A stretch of DNA of 33,314 bases from the IMG/VR virus record IMGVR_UViG_3300050133_000060, positions 1 through 33,314 of that record; one strand, 5' to 3'. A program made the position numbers and the translations under genes. Numbering within the stretch: the stretch's first letter is position 1; each line of letters begins with the position of its first letter. The notes under the pieces were generated by a model that worked only from the letters and a program-made list of their open reading frames with translations, did not search any database and had not been told where the DNA came from. Below are positions 1-33,314 of this stretch, piece by piece. Origin of the DNA: a virus.

Positions 1-114
1 CTTGTGGGTCTCACGGTAGGCGGCCTTCTTGGCGGCCAGCTCCTCCTTGTGGGTCTCACAGTAGGCGGCCATCTTGGCGGCCAGCTCCTCCTTGTGGGTC
101 TCACGGTAGGCGGC
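1..114 (-). repeat. 45-bp tandem repeat array, left portion
   Basis: About 2.5 copies of a 45-bp unit, nearly identical at the DNA level and each coding 15 residues on the minus strand. Differences seen are A at 60 (Arg to Cys codon) and A at 72 (Lys to Met codon). The near-identity implies recent expansion. The array continues at the right edge of the window (33173-33314), so the contig ends lie inside it. Confidence 0.9.
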
Positions 115-312
115 CGAGTATTTTCTGCGCTGTCGTTTTTGATGGAGCTGCTTATGATCGAGCTGGTCGGCAGCAACAAGCTCATCAAGCCATTTGTCAA
201 TCTCTTTATTCTCAAAACCGGCCGAAAATTCAGCGTCGACTTCTTTTTCGATCTCTTCGTCGGAGATCCGCATCTCTTCCAGCTCTTCCGGGGTAAATAA
301 TGGGCGTGACAT
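1..312 (-). CDS. Tandem-repeat protein, N-terminal part (runs off left edge)
   Basis: An open frame starts at ATG 312 and reads leftward without a stop to base 1, giving 104 residues. The ATG overlaps the TAA of the upstream DUF3846-type gene (TAATG), a sign of translational coupling. Residues 1-66 form a unique acidic then basic segment rich in E, D, K and Q. From about residue 67 the protein is a 15-residue repeat, AAYRETHKEELAAKK, encoded by a 45-bp repeat. The same repeat in the same frame sense enters from the right edge at 33314, so this is probably the front of the gene ending at 33055. One unit has R to C and one K to M. Highly charged (R/K)-E-x-x-K-E-E repeats of this kind suggest a long rigid helix. 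I do not recognise a function. Confidence 0.75.
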   Translation of the reverse strand, partial: MSRPLFTPEELEEMRISDEEIEKEVDAEFSAGFENKEIDKWLDELVAADQLDHKQLHQKRQRRKYSAAYRETHKEELAAKMAAYCETHKEELAAKKAAYRETHK

Positions 313-12469: not shown

Positions 12470-13180
12470 TTATGCGTGTGCTGTGACAGTCGCGATGCCT
12501 GCTTTTACTGCGGCATTTGCAGCCGTAACTTCGGCGATCACTATCTGATTACCTGTTACTGCTGTAATAACGGCCGAGCCGTCCCACGCTGTCCAACCTG
12601 TTGTTAAGATTGCGCCTGCTGCAGGCAGGGTCTCTGTTGCGGCGGTGGCGTATTTGTAACTGTTGCCTCCGGCCTTAGCAGGGTTGACATAGATCGAAGT
12701 TGTACCAGCTGTAGTAGGCCCGGCGACCGATACGACCGACAGAGCACCAAGGTTTGGCGTGAATGTCGGCAGACCGTCGAGATGTACTTCAAAGCTTATC
12801 GCGGTCGCCTCGACTGATTTTCCGCCGGTATCGTCCACTTTGACGAGAGTGCAACCACCCGTAACGGTGCTGCCGTCCGGTGCGACGAGCTTGTAGTTGG
12901 TTTTGCGCGAGCTGCCAAAGCCATACTGTACTCCGACGCCGTAGATGTAGTCCTGCGCAGCGTCGCCTCTTATGCGGTTGCCGGTAAATGTCGTTATGAG
13001 CTGGCCGCCTAAGACCTCGGTCGTGCCCCATCCGTTGTTGGCAAGATACTGGTATGACTGCGTGACCTCATTCAGCGACTTTTTATAGTCATTAATGCCC
13101 GCGCCGATCTCAGCCCATATAGGGCCGCCGCTTACCGGTGAGGTGTCGATAAAAAAGCCATATTGATAGTTGATATCCAA
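12470..13180 (-). CDS. Major tail (tube) protein with C-terminal add-on domain
   Basis: 236 residues from TTG 13180, preferred because GGAGTGG lies 6 nt upstream; the in-frame ATG at 13195 has no ribosome site and overlaps the previous gene. Residues 1-140 are a tail tube fold (PIWAEIGAGINDYKKSLNEV, GGQLITTFTGNRIRGD, EATAISFEVHL). Residues about 144-236 form a second domain (SVVSVAG...TTSIYV...YKYATA...LTTGWTAW...IVIAEVTAANAAVKAG). It clearly resembles the C-terminal domain of the major capsid protein of this phage (14686-15888). It polymerises as the tail tube, with the extra domain probably on the outside. Confidence 0.82.
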   Translation of the reverse strand: MDINYQYGFFIDTSPVSGGPIWAEIGAGINDYKKSLNEVTQSYQYLANNGWGTTEVLGGQLITTFTGNRIRGDAAQDYIYGVGVQYGFGSSRKTNYKLVAPDGSTVTGGCTLVKVDDTGGKSVEATAISFEVHLDGLPTFTPNLGALSVVSVAGPTTAGTTSIYVNPAKAGGNSYKYATAATETLPAAGAILTTGWTAWDGSAVITAVTGNQIVIAEVTAANAAVKAGIATVTAHA

Positions 13181-13181
13181 A

Positions 13182-13559
13182 TCAAACCACTCCATTCTGA
13201 TAAAAAGTTATTTTAAGAACGCTCCCGTAAAGGTATTGCTGATTGTTCGCGTCCTTACCGATGTAATTCGGCTCCGTGCCGGTTGCAATATTACTGATCG
13301 AATAGTCAGAGCCGGGAGGATAGGCTTTAAGCTGCGTAAATTGCTTATGGACGGTTTCGAGTGTCGAAAGTGCAGCGGATTGATCTACGTTTTTGGCGTT
13401 GACCGTGACATAGATTTCATGTTCTTTGCCGCGGTCGAAGTATTCGTCATTCACGCCACCGGCACCGCAATAAAGGGCAATGCCGTTTGCTTCGGGCATA
13501 GCGCCGATTATAGAGCCGGTAATCCCGTCACAAAGGTATTCTAAAATTTCGGCAATCAT
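13182..13559 (-). CDS. Minor capsid/tail completion protein (Minor_capsid_3-like)
   Basis: 125 residues. The pattern fits the third of the three small minor capsid families that follow head genes in A118-like phages: a start EILEYLCDGI, then GIALYCGAGGVNDEYFDRGKE, then a beta strand YVTVNAKN and a late YPPGSDYSISNI, KITFYQ. It likely acts as a tail terminator or joining protein. It lies between the preceding minor capsid gene (2 nt gap) and the tail tube gene (1 nt gap). Confidence 0.7.
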   Translation of the reverse strand: MIAEILEYLCDGITGSIIGAMPEANGIALYCGAGGVNDEYFDRGKEHEIYVTVNAKNVDQSAALSTLETVHKQFTQLKAYPPGSDYSISNIATGTEPNYIGKDANNQQYLYGSVLKITFYQNGVV

Positions 13560-14685: not shown

Positions 14686-15888
14686 TTAGGTACTCGCCTT
14701 TGAAACGATTGTTACGGTGCCGGTGCCTACAGCCTTATTGCTGACCGCGTTGACCTCGGCGACGGTGATAACTTGTCCTGTGGTGAGCGTCAAGTCGATG
14801 CCGGTGCCGAGCGGAGTCCATCCGGTTGTAAGCACGTCGCCATAGGCAACGGAAGTCGCGCCGACAGCCGCCTTATAGATGAGTATCGTGCCCGGCTTGA
14901 GGGACTCGGCCACGCTGATAGTAGATTTGCCCGAAGCAGAGCCTGCAACGGATGTCACGGTCAAGGTCAGAAGCGAAGGGGCGCCGATATTGGCATAGAT
15001 GCCGGTGAGGCGCTGATTGAGGGTAAAGATATCGTAGTAGTAGGACTCATAATAGAGCCACTTGCCGCGCGTCTTGGCATCAGGTGGGGCGATCATGGAC
15101 GTTTCGTAAACGACCGGGGCAATGATCGAAAGCGGATGGAAAATAACCATGTTGATCTGAGAAGCGCCAGAGGCTTTGACCGAACCCTCGGTAAAGTCAT
15201 AGGCAGAATACATCAGATCGGACGGTACCTGCTTAATCATCACGCCATCAAGGTTTCCGATCTCACGGTTGACGCCGCCATCATTCGAAGAACCCACGGT
15301 GAGGAAGCGCGTAAGGCCTGCAGCCTGCTTGAGAAGTTTATACCAGGCAGGGATGATGTAGCAGATACGACCCGCCAGCGGCACGCGTGCGTCCGTCAGG
15401 GTGGCATTGTATGTGTCGAAGGCATCAAGGATGGTATCTGCTGTAAGCGCAGTGGCGTCGACGTTCCCGAAATATGTCGCGGCGGTCGCCAGCGTGGACG
15501 ACGCATAAGAATCCATTTCGGGCATTTTCTGAAACTGATTGAAGGTCTGCGTGATCTTTGCAATGGAATAAACCATGTTTGTTTCGTCGATGTCCTTCTG
15601 GTCGACAAGCGTGTCCCATTCGCGGTACATGCTCATGGTCTTGGGCTCATACTGCGCGTTGAAATTCCTTGTGAAATCTCCCGACAGGCTGTCACGGTCG
15701 ACGTTATGAGCGCCCTTGACGGTCATGGACGGGATCTCCACGGTGCGCGCATTGGTCAGAGACGGGACATAGAGCGAGTTGTTCGGCGTGGCGTAGACCT
15801 CACCGAAATACATGAGATATGGGTATGCGTTCGCGAGTTCCTGCGAATAGGCTACCGCATAGTTGGTAGGTGCCTGAGTAAAAGCCAT
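14686..15888 (-). CDS. Major capsid protein with C-terminal add-on domain
   Basis: 400 residues. The front (AFTQAPTNYAVAYSQELANA, EIPSMTVKGAHNVDRDSL, YEPKTMSMYREWDTLVDQKD) and the core (ARVPLAGRICYIIPAWYKLL, VIFHPLSIIAPVVYE, YYESYYYDIFTLNQR) are an HK97-fold coat of the GP20-scaffold phage type. Residues about 306-400 form a separate domain (LTVTSVAG...TISVAE...IYKAAV...LTTGWTPL...ITVAEVNAVSNKAV) akin to the end of the tail tube protein. It probably sits on the capsid surface as a built-in decoration. It follows scaffold by 16 nt, with GGAAGTG before ATG 15888. Confidence 0.9.
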   Translation of the reverse strand: MAFTQAPTNYAVAYSQELANAYPYLMYFGEVYATPNNSLYVPSLTNARTVEIPSMTVKGAHNVDRDSLSGDFTRNFNAQYEPKTMSMYREWDTLVDQKDIDETNMVYSIAKITQTFNQFQKMPEMDSYASSTLATAATYFGNVDATALTADTILDAFDTYNATLTDARVPLAGRICYIIPAWYKLLKQAAGLTRFLTVGSSNDGGVNREIGNLDGVMIKQVPSDLMYSAYDFTEGSVKASGASQINMVIFHPLSIIAPVVYETSMIAPPDAKTRGKWLYYESYYYDIFTLNQRLTGIYANIGAPSLLTLTVTSVAGSASGKSTISVAESLKPGTILIYKAAVGATSVAYGDVLTTGWTPLGTGIDLTLTTGQVITVAEVNAVSNKAVGTGTVTIVSKAST

Positions 15889-15904: not shown

Positions 15905-16426
15905 TTATTTTTTAGGTGGGACAAAACCCCAAACATCGTTAAATGACGGGGTATCTTTCCCTCCGGGCATTCCGCCTTTGGGCGGTGCGCCGAATTGCGG
16001 CTTTGTGGGAGATGCGGAGTCTTCGGCGGTTGTGAATAAAGTCTTGACGCTCTCGTCTTTGATTAACTCGTCAAGTTGTTCGTCAATGCCGGTCAGCTTG
16101 TCACCATCGAGCTTGATCTTCTCAGGGTCAAGCAGGGCGCGCACGGCCTTGGCCGCATTGTCGCCTTTCACACCTTTGGCCTTGAGGTGGCCAGCGAGGG
16201 CATAGTCGAATTTGATACCGCCGAGCTGCTTTTCAAGGTCGGTTGCCTTGGCAGCCTGCGTCCTGAGCGTATCGATGTCGGTATCTCCAAGTTGCTTTTT
16301 GAGCTCTTCCTCAAGCTGAGATTTAGGGACATAGTCGCTCATTGATGTGCTGTGCAGCGTTGCGACTTTATCTATCAGCTCATCGGTGAGCCCCATATCT
16401 TTGAGTGCTTTACGTGTAAATGCCAT
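15905..16426 (-). CDS. Scaffold protein (GP20-type)
   Basis: 173 residues. The start FTRKALKDMGLTDELIDKV, a central coiled coil (SQLEEELKKQLGDTDIDTLR), the segment DYALAGHLKAKGVKGDNAAK and the ending FNDVWGFVPPKK match phage minor structural protein GP20, the scaffold that guides capsid assembly. It directly precedes the major capsid gene. AGAGG lies before ATG 16426. Confidence 0.85.
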   Translation of the reverse strand: MAFTRKALKDMGLTDELIDKVATLHSTSMSDYVPKSQLEEELKKQLGDTDIDTLRTQAAKATDLEKQLGGIKFDYALAGHLKAKGVKGDNAAKAVRALLDPEKIKLDGDKLTGIDEQLDELIKDESVKTLFTTAEDSASPTKPQFGAPPKGGMPGGKDTPSFNDVWGFVPPKK

Positions 16427-16461: not shown

Positions 16462-16529
16462 CTATTTGCCGTAGTTTTGCGACTTCGACGCGGTCATCTG
16501 CCGTAGTTTAACGCCATCGACGCGGGCAT
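16462..16529 (-). repeat. Imperfect 32-bp direct repeat coding two coupled 11-aa mini-ORFs
   Basis: Two minus-strand mini-ORFs of equal length: ATG 16529 to TGA 16494 (MPASMALNYGR) and ATG 16497 to TAG 16462 (MTASKSQNYGK). They overlap as ATGA. Aligned, they share M-x-A-S and N-Y-G-(R/K)-stop, and the DNA repeats with a 32-bp step. They occupy the gap between a hairpin (16537-16550) and the scaffold gene. Ribosome sites are weak, so translation is uncertain. It could instead be an RNA element. Confidence 0.45.
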
Positions 16530-16536
16530 GAATAAA

Positions 16537-16550
16537 CCGCCCTGTGGCGG
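16537..16550 (-). terminator. Hairpin between Dps-like and scaffold genes
   Basis: On the minus strand CCGCC-ACAG-GGCGG followed by TTTATTC. It directly abuts the stop of the Dps-like gene. It has the same ACAG loop as the hairpin at 17067-17084. With a weak T tract it may attenuate transcription or protect mRNA ends, not stop transcription fully. Confidence 0.5.
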
Positions 16551-17039
16551 CTACATCATATCGTTATCGTCATCCTCGACGGGTGGGATAGGTGTTACCG
16601 GTTGCGGGGGTGTTGGAGCTGGCCCGCTTGTCGCGCGCAGGAGCTTATAATCAGCTTCTTTGCGGAGCGTCTCGCGATATTCCTGCAGCTTATTGACAAC
16701 GTCGGCATATTGCGGGCCAAGCGATGCTTCGGCAGAGGCGAGTTGTACCATAATGGAATTAAAAATTGACCTGGCCTCAATAAGTGAGGTGCGGGCGTCC
16801 CGGTCTGCAACCGGCAGGGCAGCAGCGCATGTTAAAGCGTCTACAATAGTCATTTCCTTGTAGCCGAGCGCAATGCCGATTTCGGCCACGTCATCAGACA
16901 TGTCGCCGATCATTTCGTAATAGTCCAAAAGTTTCTCGTGCGTTGGGAACCATTCACAGCCGATCACGTTGTGATGCAATGTTAAAAGGTTTTCATAGGC
17001 CATTTTTAGCATTGCTATGAGTTTGAGAAATTCATTCAA
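16551..17039 (-). CDS. Dps/ferritin-like protein in the head operon
   Basis: 162 residues from TTG 17039, which has AAGGAGGTG 6 nt upstream; the in-frame GTG at 17048 lies within that ribosome site. Residues 21-56 (LHHNVIGCEWFPTHEKLL... DDVAEIGIALG) match the first half of the Dps ferritin-like fold. The Dps metal ligands align: H22, H34, D49 and E53 are kept. The usual Asp four residues after the second His is Leu38, with Asp39 next to it. The second half is helical and ends in a Pro-rich, acidic tail (PAPTPPQPVTP...EDDDNDMM). Dps proteins bind DNA or oxidise iron; here the gene lies between minor head protein and scaffold, so it may be a virion or assembly part. Function is inferred. Confidence 0.6.
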   Translation of the reverse strand: MNEFLKLIAMLKMAYENLLTLHHNVIGCEWFPTHEKLLDYYEMIGDMSDDVAEIGIALGYKEMTIVDALTCAAALPVADRDARTSLIEARSIFNSIMVQLASAEASLGPQYADVVNKLQEYRETLRKEADYKLLRATSGPAPTPPQPVTPIPPVEDDDNDMM

Positions 17040-17066
17040 TCCTTTCACCTCCTTATGAATAATAAA

Positions 17067-17084
17067 AAGCGCCCTGTGGCGCTT
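17067..17084 (-). terminator. Hairpin between minor head and Dps-like genes
   Basis: On the minus strand AAGCGCC-ACAG-GGCGCTT followed by TTTATTATTC, a good Rho-independent shape directly after the minor head protein stop. It precedes the strong ribosome site of the Dps-like gene. It likely lowers readthrough inside the late operon. Confidence 0.65.
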
Positions 17085-17089
17085 GCAAG

Positions 17090-18211
17090 CTATTTTATGA
17101 CACGTTCACGATCGGGGCGCCGCGTTCTGCCGGTCTTATCTACAAACGCCCTCATGCGGGTCTGCGCGGCCTTTACTTTAGAATTGGCATTGCTCGCGTC
17201 AAGTCCGGCGCTGTTAAGCATGTCGGATTTACGCTTTGCCGTGCGGATATCCCTCTCAATAGATCGCTGCTGCTGGCTTTGCTTGTATTGCTCGGCGTTC
17301 TCGGCCTCATCTACGGTCGGCTGGTATGTTTTAGCAGACGCACCAGCGATAAACGGGTATTTTGTATGATGGCAGTTAATACCGAATAGGCCCGCAGGTT
17401 CACCGTAACTGGTATCAGACAGAGCGCCATAATGTATTTTGTGACCATCAACGTCGGTCGTTGTACCAGCACCATTACTACTGAGTAGTTTGCCCTGATA
17501 TGGTGCGCACAGAGGCCGAGCCGCCGATACAGATGAAACTTCAAATACATCGACTCCGTAATCGCTCATACGCGCATCCTGTGCTGCTATGGCCGTGTTA
17601 TGGACGGTGGTTTTAATAACCATACCCGTGTATGCCTCAGGCGTCCATGTCCGGCCCGCCTTATCTACAAGAGCAGGGAGCCCTTTATCTGCAAACTCCT
17701 CAATAGTTTGTTTTAAAGCCTGTTGTCTTGAGATAGCCCCGGATGCAGCTGCATAGGTTGTCTTGTTGATGATATCGACGTATGCCTGTTGTGCCTTGTG
17801 TAACATGGTCGTGTTTGTGAGGTTCATTTTATCAATTGCTTGCTTGGTATAGGATGCCAAAACGTTTTTTACTGCAGGAGATATTTCGATATCGATGGCT
17901 TTTCTGATTAGATTATCCTTTGCAGCCTGTTGAAATATCGGCTCAATCTCTTTGATTGCTTCGTTCGCCGCTGTCTCGAGCGCAATCATTGTCATCTCGG
18001 GCACTGTTCCGGTGGCGTCGGCAATGATCTTGATATTTTCTTTTGTGAGGCCACCCATTTCGGCCAGCTTCTTAATCTGCCACTTCGTAGTAGCATCTGC
18101 TTGGTTTCCGCTGTCTCGCAAACGTCGGGCAATAGAGTTTAGCAGGTCGGACTCAAGCCCGTTATAAACGTCAACAATAGGCTGCGCGAGGCTGTCAATA
18201 TCAAGCTTCAC
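17090..18211 (-). CDS. Phage minor capsid protein 2 (minor head protein)
   Basis: 373 residues. GTG 18211 has GGAGGCGG just upstream and overlaps the portal end by 11 nt. The N-terminal half is helical. Residues about 225-310 carry the family signature: ARPLCAPYQGKLLSSNG, then SYGEPAGLFGINCHH, then YPFIAGASAKTYQP, followed by YKQSQQQRSIERDIRTAKRK. This is the layout of phage minor capsid protein 2, which follows the portal and is thought to be a few-copy head component that may enter with DNA. The C-terminus is basic. Confidence 0.85.
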   Translation of the reverse strand: MKLDIDSLAQPIVDVYNGLESDLLNSIARRLRDSGNQADATTKWQIKKLAEMGGLTKENIKIIADATGTVPEMTMIALETAANEAIKEIEPIFQQAAKDNLIRKAIDIEISPAVKNVLASYTKQAIDKMNLTNTTMLHKAQQAYVDIINKTTYAAASGAISRQQALKQTIEEFADKGLPALVDKAGRTWTPEAYTGMVIKTTVHNTAIAAQDARMSDYGVDVFEVSSVSAARPLCAPYQGKLLSSNGAGTTTDVDGHKIHYGALSDTSYGEPAGLFGINCHHTKYPFIAGASAKTYQPTVDEAENAEQYKQSQQQRSIERDIRTAKRKSDMLNSAGLDASNANSKVKAAQTRMRAFVDKTGRTRRPDRERVIK

Positions 18212-19889
18212 CGCCGCCGCCTCCGTCGCCCTCCGGATTTAATACGTCGTCGACAGTAGCACCTGTAATTTGATCTTCTTTAGAAATCTGCGTGATCTCA
18301 TCTTCGGCACCCTGCGGTGTCATTCCGAGCGTCTCGATCATAAAGGTCTTACGGCTTTTAACGCGAGCGCCCATAAGCATGATGCCCTCATTAACCTGTG
18401 ACTGTTTATCTTTGATGATCGAGTCATCAAAGTAGATGTTCTTGGTGTAGCCTTTTTTTATCAGGTCAGCGATCTTGATGCCCTGATACTCGATATCATA
18501 AAGCACAGCGATATCAATGATATTGTCGACCAGCTTCTCGATGGCTGCCTTAAGCGGTATCTCGTGCGAAGTCATGGTCTTGTATGTCTTATCCTTTTCG
18601 CTGATAACCTGCGTCGCCGTTTGGATACCTTTGGCCTTGTCGTCAAATGTCAGCGTACCAGGGGATAGGCTGAGCTGAAAAGACAGGATACCGAGCAGCG
18701 CGTTGATCGCCAGGACGTGTTCGTCAACTCTGATCTCAACGCTATTATCGAGTATCTTGAGGCTTTCGGGGTCATCGGTTGAAAGCGCCTGGTATACCTC
18801 ATCGTTTGCATCGAAGTAGCGAAGCGTCTGCCCAGAGTCGGGGTCAATTACTTGCCGGATTGCGGACGCCGGAACGATAATCCTTTTGCGACCGAGGATA
18901 AACTCACGGATAAATGAGTCAAAGGCAATGTCAAGAGCCTTGAGCGTTGAAAGCGCATTCGCATAGAGTGAAATACCAAGCGGAGAGTTGTCATCAAGGT
19001 TGTTCGCTGTGTTTGGACGATAGTAGGAAAAGAGCGAACGCTTAAGCCCGACAATAGGCGTCTCGGGCGACAGAAATTTATAAACCTCATCAAGCGGGCG
19101 CTGAAATCCGAGGATGTTTTGATTTTCAATGCCCGGTTTCTGTTCGGCCCGATATAACTGATTGCGTATGATATAGGTCGTCCCGTCCCATTGGTGCCAT
19201 GCCAAGGTTGTATAATAATATCCGCCCTTCGCCTGACGGCTGATAAAAAGGCCCTCGGTTATGTCGGAATTAGACCAGGCAAGCGGGACAAACTGATCGG
19301 CCATATAGTAACCAATGACGATCTTCGGTTGCACGTCGGGATCGGTTACGAGCTGGCCATTGTCATCCTGTATCGGGTTGCCTTTATCATCGAGCTTATA
19401 TGTAGGCTCGGCCCATACCATAAGAGCGCCGCCGCCGAGTGCAAGCGTCTGCTCAAGGTGTTCCTGCATTTTGACCGTGAAGTTGTTGCCCTCGATATAT
19501 TCATCGCCGTTAAGTACGGCATTGACAAACAGATTAAGCAGGTCAGGCTTGTCGTCGGTCGCCTCATATCCCTTTTGTGATACAGACACGCCGCACTTTT
19601 CAGACCACATGAGGGAGGCGAGCTCCTGACAAACGGCTTTCGCGGTGTCAAGGCGTTCCATATCGCGCGTGGCTTTTTGGTTTGCGATGGTCGGCGCAGG
19701 GACGAGGTGCCATAACTTATAATATCCTCTATAAATCCACTTCCACGGGAAAATACCTATGTTGTAAAACTGACGGTATGAAGGAACGCCCACTAAATCA
19801 AATACGTCTTTTTTTGCCTGTTCAATACCTGTAACCTGTGCCATCCCGTGAAACATCCCCTTTACTTTGGCAATGAGATTTTCAAACAT
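18201..19889 (-). CDS. Portal protein (A118/SPP1 type)
   Basis: 562 residues. The start FENLIAKVKGMFHGMAQVTG and the stretch KAVCQELASLMWSEKCGVSV, followed by LEQTLALGGGALMVWAEP, are typical of A118-type portals. Later segments PLGISLYANALSTLKALDIA and ATQVISEKDKTYKTMTSHE also fit. The C-terminus is Gly-rich. The portal is a dodecameric ring at one head vertex through which the terminase packs DNA. It lies 4 nt after the large terminase gene and overlaps the minor head gene. GGCAGGTG precedes ATG 19889. Confidence 0.9.
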   Translation of the reverse strand: MFENLIAKVKGMFHGMAQVTGIEQAKKDVFDLVGVPSYRQFYNIGIFPWKWIYRGYYKLWHLVPAPTIANQKATRDMERLDTAKAVCQELASLMWSEKCGVSVSQKGYEATDDKPDLLNLFVNAVLNGDEYIEGNNFTVKMQEHLEQTLALGGGALMVWAEPTYKLDDKGNPIQDDNGQLVTDPDVQPKIVIGYYMADQFVPLAWSNSDITEGLFISRQAKGGYYYTTLAWHQWDGTTYIIRNQLYRAEQKPGIENQNILGFQRPLDEVYKFLSPETPIVGLKRSLFSYYRPNTANNLDDNSPLGISLYANALSTLKALDIAFDSFIREFILGRKRIIVPASAIRQVIDPDSGQTLRYFDANDEVYQALSTDDPESLKILDNSVEIRVDEHVLAINALLGILSFQLSLSPGTLTFDDKAKGIQTATQVISEKDKTYKTMTSHEIPLKAAIEKLVDNIIDIAVLYDIEYQGIKIADLIKKGYTKNIYFDDSIIKDKQSQVNEGIMLMGARVKSRKTFMIETLGMTPQGAEDEITQISKEDQITGATVDDVLNPEGDGGGGGEA

Positions 19890-33076: not shown

Positions 33077-33314
33077 GTTGCTGCCTCTTTTGTCATGCAG
33101 CAGGTAACCACATTGACCCGCCGACGTTGACCTTTTCGATGTGATTCTCTGTAACAGCGCTGATAATCTAAAAGCTCCTCCTTGTGGGTCTCACGGTAGG
33201 CGGCCTTCTTGGCGGCCAGCTCCTCCTTGTGGGTCTCACGGTAGGCGGCCTTCTTGGCGGCCAGCTCCTCCTTGTGGGTCTCACGGTAGGCGGCCATCTT
33301 GGCGGCCAGCTCCT
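33055..33314 (-). CDS. Tandem-repeat protein, C-terminal part (runs in from right edge)
   Basis: This frame is open at the right edge and ends at TGA 33055-33057. It reads three further 15-residue units (AAYRETHKEELAAKK) and then a degenerate one (YQRCYRESHRKGQRRRVNVV) and the tail TCCMTKEAATCIQSTT. It is the likely continuation of the gene at 1-312 if the genome is circular. Joining the edges directly leaves the repeat one base short (a C on the plus strand) and would shift the frame, so a base or whole repeat units are probably missing at the join. An ATG at 33297 lies inside a repeat unit and is unlikely to be a start. Confidence 0.7.
   Translation of the reverse strand, partial: ELAAKMAAYRETHKEELAAKKAAYRETHKEELAAKKAAYRETHKEELLDYQRCYRESHRKGQRRRVNVVTCCMTKEAATCIQSTT
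33173..33314 (-). repeat. 45-bp tandem repeat array, right portion
   Basis: About three copies of the same 45-bp unit as at 1-114, the last cut by the window edge. One copy has A at 33295 (Lys to Met codon). Assembly probably broke here because the repeats could not be spanned. Confidence 0.9.

Follow-up and report, generated by a model that had tools for sequence, protein, structure and literature searches.

The open reading frame at 17039..16551 (minus strand) of the IMG/VR virus record IMGVR_UViG_3300050133_000060 (positions 1 to 33,314, the 33,314 nucleotides analysed here and called the window) is strongly supported as a true Dps-type mini-ferritin. It belongs to a previously unrecognised subfamily, found in 11 distinct phages or prophages of Bacillota, whose gene lies in one slot of the head cluster, after minor head protein 2 and before the scaffold. 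The most likely role of the protein, to which we assign a probability of roughly 0.6, is that of an active Dps mini-ferritin, an iron-oxidising cage made late together with the head proteins. It probably works alongside head assembly and is not stray cargo, since at least ten other gut phages have relatives of it at this position, and these share its iron-binding residues and likewise end in an acidic tail.

Phage-encoded Dps proteins are already known; the fixed position in the head cluster and the conserved tail are new. To our knowledge, phage Dps genes have so far been interpreted as stress-protection cargo. In the available text of the two relevant papers, Dps is described in ‘Gratiaviridae’ and in 36 other gut phage genomes (PMC8008677), and Lactobacillus plantarum phages have their Dps gene near DNA-metabolism genes (PMC6669764). 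The ‘Gratiaviridae’, the Flandersviridae and the L. plantarum myophages resemble our case in having a Dps-type protein in phages of gut or fermentative bacteria, but no conserved head-slot position is described for their Dps in that same text (PMC8008677, PMC6669764). A Dps in the head cluster was not found in the literature searched, a body of work that leaves out most subscription journals.

Gene and Fold

The dps-like gene (16551..17039, minus strand) encodes 162 amino acids from a TTG start at 17039, with AAGGAGG 8 nt upstream; the ribosome-binding site region, AAGGAGGTGAAAGGA (17040..17055, minus strand), was read from the sequence directly. We consider TTG to be the right start because of this spacing, because the alternative GTG (17048) falls within the AAGGAGG itself and because the start column is common to all homologues in the alignment. 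Upstream lies the minor head protein (Phage_min_cap2, 17090..18211; PF06152, E 4e-100), preceded by the portal protein (18201..19889), and downstream the head scaffolding protein (15905..16426; PF06810, E 1e-21) and the major head protein (PHROG 422, 14686..15888), which has an extra C-terminal SbsC-like domain, all on the minus strand. Both the open reading frame and its placement between minor head protein and scaffold, as given in the preliminary description of the window, are thus confirmed. The order portal, minor head protein 2, scaffold, major head protein is also that of the head cluster of Listeria phage A118, in which, however, nothing is encoded between the minor head protein and the scaffold.

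Used alone as a phmmer query against PDB chains, the window protein matched solved Dps proteins (E 4e-6 to 5e-5), and it also matched PHROG 3636 (E 9e-9). It stayed under the cut-offs in Pfam (Ferritin included) and NCBIfam profile searches, and a homologue from the same slot (L091) exceeds the curated cut-off of Pfam Ferritin (28.5 vs 24.5 bits). The AlphaFold2 monomer model built with nine homologues (pLDDT 87.9, pTM 0.78) had low confidence only in the tail past residue 140, and its helices (3-24, 30-57, 65-69, 82-106 and 109-137) make up a four-helix bundle with a short helix in the B-C loop. All of the best Foldseek matches to this model were Dps (Listeria Dps, TM 0.75/0.81), and with a second structure aligner, which reached a best Z of 20.3 and an rmsd of 1.5 Å over 138 residues, the leading matches were again Dps-type proteins. 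A model made without an alignment (pLDDT 57.8) was poor, and it was discarded together with the meaningless fold search run on it. The Dps/ferritin-like identity first suggested from a residue pattern is therefore borne out by sequence and structure matches, and the predicted fold is the ferritin four-helix bundle and not another one.

Compared with the Dps family (Listeria innocua Dps, HP-NAP, TpF1 and Streptococcus suis Dpr), the window protein shares the fold of the whole core (Z 18-20), the short B-C helix and the four main ferroxidase ligands at identical spacing. It differs in being only about 14-21% identical, in missing the auxiliary Asp, in beginning at helix A without an N-terminal tail, in the added linker and acidic C-terminal tip, and in the location of its gene in a phage head cluster.

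The Predicted Ferroxidase Site

The pattern H-x11-H-x14-D-x3-E, formed by H22, H34, D49 and E53, occurs once in the 63,972 six-frame residues of the window. Among 764,128 ORF residues of the loci compared there were five matches, four of them Dps and the other an unrelated chance frame, so that a match is informative here. Sequence alignment places window residues 7-76 on residues 16-86 of Listeria Dps (1qgh), and residue 1 of the model corresponds to Listeria residue 10 or 11; H22/H34/D49/E53 are consequently the counterparts of H31/H43/D58/E62, and the pattern that had drawn attention to this gene is real and maps onto the known ferroxidase site of Listeria Dps. Ferroxidase ligands of Dps come together across the subunit interface, and on the evidence of this alignment and of the monomer model the four residues are predicted to meet in one inter-subunit site.

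An alignment of nine proteins, the window's and eight homologues that are 33-42% identical to it, has only 15 invariant columns, among which are the four ligands and an Asp in the C-terminal tip. The chance of the four ligands all falling among 15 invariant columns out of about 150 is about 7e-5. Codon comparison within the subfamily gave dN/dS values of 0.05-0.15 where dS was measurable, that is, strong purifying selection.

One usual ligand is missing, as had been described (L38, with D39 adjoining). The auxiliary Asp position (D47 in Listeria) is occupied by Leu38 in the window and by D, E, G or L in the homologues. This Asp is common in Dps, though not universal, and in the alignment the position is likewise not Asp in a solved Dps, Deinococcus Dps-2, so the residue does not decide membership of the family. 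With Leu in the window protein and Gly in several homologues, the second metal may be bound weakly.

A dodecameric cage and the oxidation and storage of Fe(II) are hallmarks of Dps, or mini-ferritins. For the window protein, twelve subunits would accordingly be expected to build a hollow shell, in which Fe(II) would be oxidised by peroxide or oxygen at sites between two subunits, with H22/H34 contributed by one and D49/E53 by its neighbour, and the iron would be stored as ferric oxide. The position of the gene within the head cluster suggests that the cage would be produced late, alongside the head proteins. Its effect would be to clear Fenton-active iron and peroxide from the surroundings of newly formed heads and phage DNA in gut hosts that live anaerobically. 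That a subfamily locked to the head cluster keeps both its catalytic residues and its tail suggests that, in such hosts, building the virion or keeping it safe involves the control of iron or peroxide.

A Subfamily in the Head Slot

When bacterial genomes were searched with the major head protein, 20 prophages were retrieved, five of which (L091-L095, from Bacillota) carry a Dps in the slot. An alignment of these homologues was then used for searches by Dps sequence only, and these produced six further distinct phages. The gene was in the head slot in all but one of the six, the sole exception being a 102-kb phage (L132) with its Dps member elsewhere. The 11 in-slot phages are therefore the window, L091, L092, L093, L094, L095, L124/L125/L133, L126/L127, L128, L152 and L155 (those joined by a slash are counted once). 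Members of the subfamily scored 138-255 bits against the profile vs 27-44 bits for chromosomal Dps. Weak matches at about this lower level (L130, L131, L135-L143 and L145) were not counted, as they resemble chromosomal Dps, have no acidic tip and have no head genes nearby.

Dps was absent from 80 related IMG/VR head-cluster loci, the window Dps by itself gave no match in exact-peptide scans of viral and genome collections, and tblastn of the subfamily against 50,697 public phage records gave no confident match. These searches were empty because the subfamily is divergent, its relatives being reached only by alignments. The link between the Dps gene and the head cluster that had been proposed for the window is thus not only upheld but enlarged, with the slot conserved in 11 distinct phages.

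In the 102-kb phage, at least five proteins encoded around the Dps gene (L132, 2833-6777 and 8118-8648) start with MS(Q/N/K)LLMEKxA, a start that the Dps of this phage does not have. This shared start is reminiscent of a targeting sequence common to proteins inside the virion.

The Acidic Tail and a Possible Association with the Head

In the window protein a Pro-rich linker (ca. residues 140-157) leads to an acidic tip. The unusual tail noted earlier is real, and its acidic tip is kept in the in-slot homologues: past helix D the linker differs between members in both length and composition, while an acidic cluster, typically EYDDD, ends every in-slot member. Nine cellular Dps proteins from Clostridia have no such tip. 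At the other end, DNA-binding Dps of the E. coli type has a Lys/Arg-rich N-terminal tail, whereas the window protein, whose first residue aligns within the Listeria protein, has none, and the net charge of the in-slot proteins is about -10 to -16. E. coli-type DNA binding is consequently unlikely, and the DNA-binding property mentioned in the preliminary description is not supported for this protein.

A packaging or head-assembly role for the window Dps is plausible. In its most specific form, which we put forward only tentatively, the acidic tip on its flexible linker would anchor the Dps cage, whether to the scaffold, the portal or the inside of the capsid; the cage would in this way be built into the procapsid or virion and might be delivered to the DNA or retained near it. 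The constancy of the terminal motif behind a variable linker, together with its absence from the cellular proteins, speaks for such docking, as does a slot common to 11 distinct phages, five of which were found by Dps sequence alone; besides, virion-like fibre or Ig-like proteins can fill the slot in relatives without Dps. However, a short acidic tip is low in sequence complexity and could merely aid solubility, shared descent of the cluster could also fix the gene order, and most relatives have a head cluster without Dps.

Encapsulin shells have the phage capsid fold and often enclose ferritin-like cargo, and the head-slot Dps offers a way of testing the idea that encapsulins arose from phages. 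If true, a tag-loaded Dps would show directly, in a virus, the pairing of iron-handling cargo with the phage capsid fold that encapsulins exhibit. In these, the gene of the ferritin-like cargo adjoins that of the HK97-fold shell, and a short C-terminal peptide loads the cargo (PMC7355545), which is a precedent for docking to the head. The likeness to encapsulin cargo (FLP, IMEF) is one of analogy, a ferritin-superfamily gene beside a capsid-type shell gene and a conserved C-terminal peptide after a linker, and the window Dps is not claimed as a member. The differences are that the shell here is a DNA-packaging phage head with its own scaffold and portal, and that the tip is acidic. The boldest reading is of a virus with cargo loading like that of encapsulins: a C-terminal acidic tag would place an active ferritin-like cage in or on the head of the tailed phage that encodes it. 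We regard this as possible but less likely than not.

Hairpins, Gene History and the Accessory-Gene Alternative

Two hairpins flank the dps-like gene on the minus strand. One is terminator-like, AAGCGCCACAGGGCGCTT followed by TTTATTATT, and lies upstream of the dps-like gene, in the interval that separates it from the minor head gene (17067..17084); its look-alike, GCCGCCACAGGGCGG followed by TTTATT, is directly 3' of the dps-like gene (16535..16552). The shared sequence CGCCACAGGGCG has exactly two occurrences, with 0.18 expected even when one mismatch is allowed. Stringent terminator-like hairpins were also present between the minor head and scaffold genes of 22 out of 52 relatives vs 0.2 expected, the commonest position being 74-87 nt ahead of the scaffold start. 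The look-alike hairpins pointed out earlier are thus both real but not specific to the Dps gene; as they are found in relatives lacking Dps, we regard them as a general feature of the head cluster. Nor do we read them as a scar of transposition or as marking the insertion of Dps, because similar hairpins precede the scaffold in such relatives. Consensus promoter and terminator scans of the window gave counts at chance level, with no promoter identified.

In the major-head tree the window stands apart from the other Dps carriers, a single clade of all Dps-bearing major head proteins being rejected (AU p 0.0007). Gain, loss or exchange has therefore happened, and we do not claim that the cluster as a whole was simply inherited vertically. 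A quick tree of the portal is compatible with one group of Dps carriers, and one locus without Dps (L014) combines a carrier-type major head protein with a non-carrier portal. Judging from this one case and the quick tree, the dps-like gene may move together with the genes on the portal side.

These data bear on whether the gene is an accessory one (a moron), providing iron storage and peroxide resistance to the lysogen or infected host from a slot that merely tolerates insertions, which we consider rather unlikely. The slot is indeed variable, as relatives have small zinc-ribbon, Ig-like, fibre-like or resolvase genes in it, hairpins lie on both sides of the gene, the window is separated from the other carriers in the major-head tree, and published phage Dps proteins have been interpreted likewise in the available text of the papers concerned (PMC8008677, PMC6669764). 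However, a gene that moves freely would be expected in other positions as well, and in five of the six distinct phages from the Dps-only searches it is the head slot that contains it; clusters without Dps have the hairpins too, and the portal tree fits one group of carriers. Last, a purely structural role, in which a Dps cage with a degenerate metal site would serve, for instance, as a core for assembly or as decoration and would do no iron chemistry, would agree with the unconserved auxiliary Asp but is very improbable given four main ligands strictly conserved in nine divergent members in which most other columns have changed. The active iron-oxidising cage produced with the head proteins remains the reading that we favour.

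Other Features of the Slot and the Window

By a simple pattern, a small zinc-ribbon gene with a K/R-rich tail was found in the slot in about 44 of the 62 Dps-less loci and in 9 of the 11 Dps carriers counted, among which are some near-copies (for example L092, 3731-3900; L128, 5836-6000; L007, 3240-3533). In several loci it is directly upstream of the dps-like gene and overlaps it; the slot of the window has no zinc-ribbon gene. Ig-like or fibre-like virion-type proteins fill this slot in Dps-less relatives (L018, L021, L025 [slot ORFs], L027, L052 and L053). The minor head protein of L002 (171-2333) is extended by a fused C-terminal domain, possibly a metallopeptidase, that has an HEYGH motif.

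In the window, the interval between the dps-like and scaffold genes contains a 32-nt sequence twice in tandem (16464-16527, 81% alike), which is possibly regulatory. The C-terminal SbsC-like domain (PF18316) of the major head protein (14686-15888) is shared with the protein in the tail-tube position (12470-13195), scoring below the curated cut-off in the former and above it in the latter; it is present in some related major head proteins and absent from others. Finally, both ends of the window (1-160 and 33136-33295) have the same 45-nt tandem repeat, which encodes AYRETHKEELAAKK on one strand, and the record may be a circular genome broken within this repeat.
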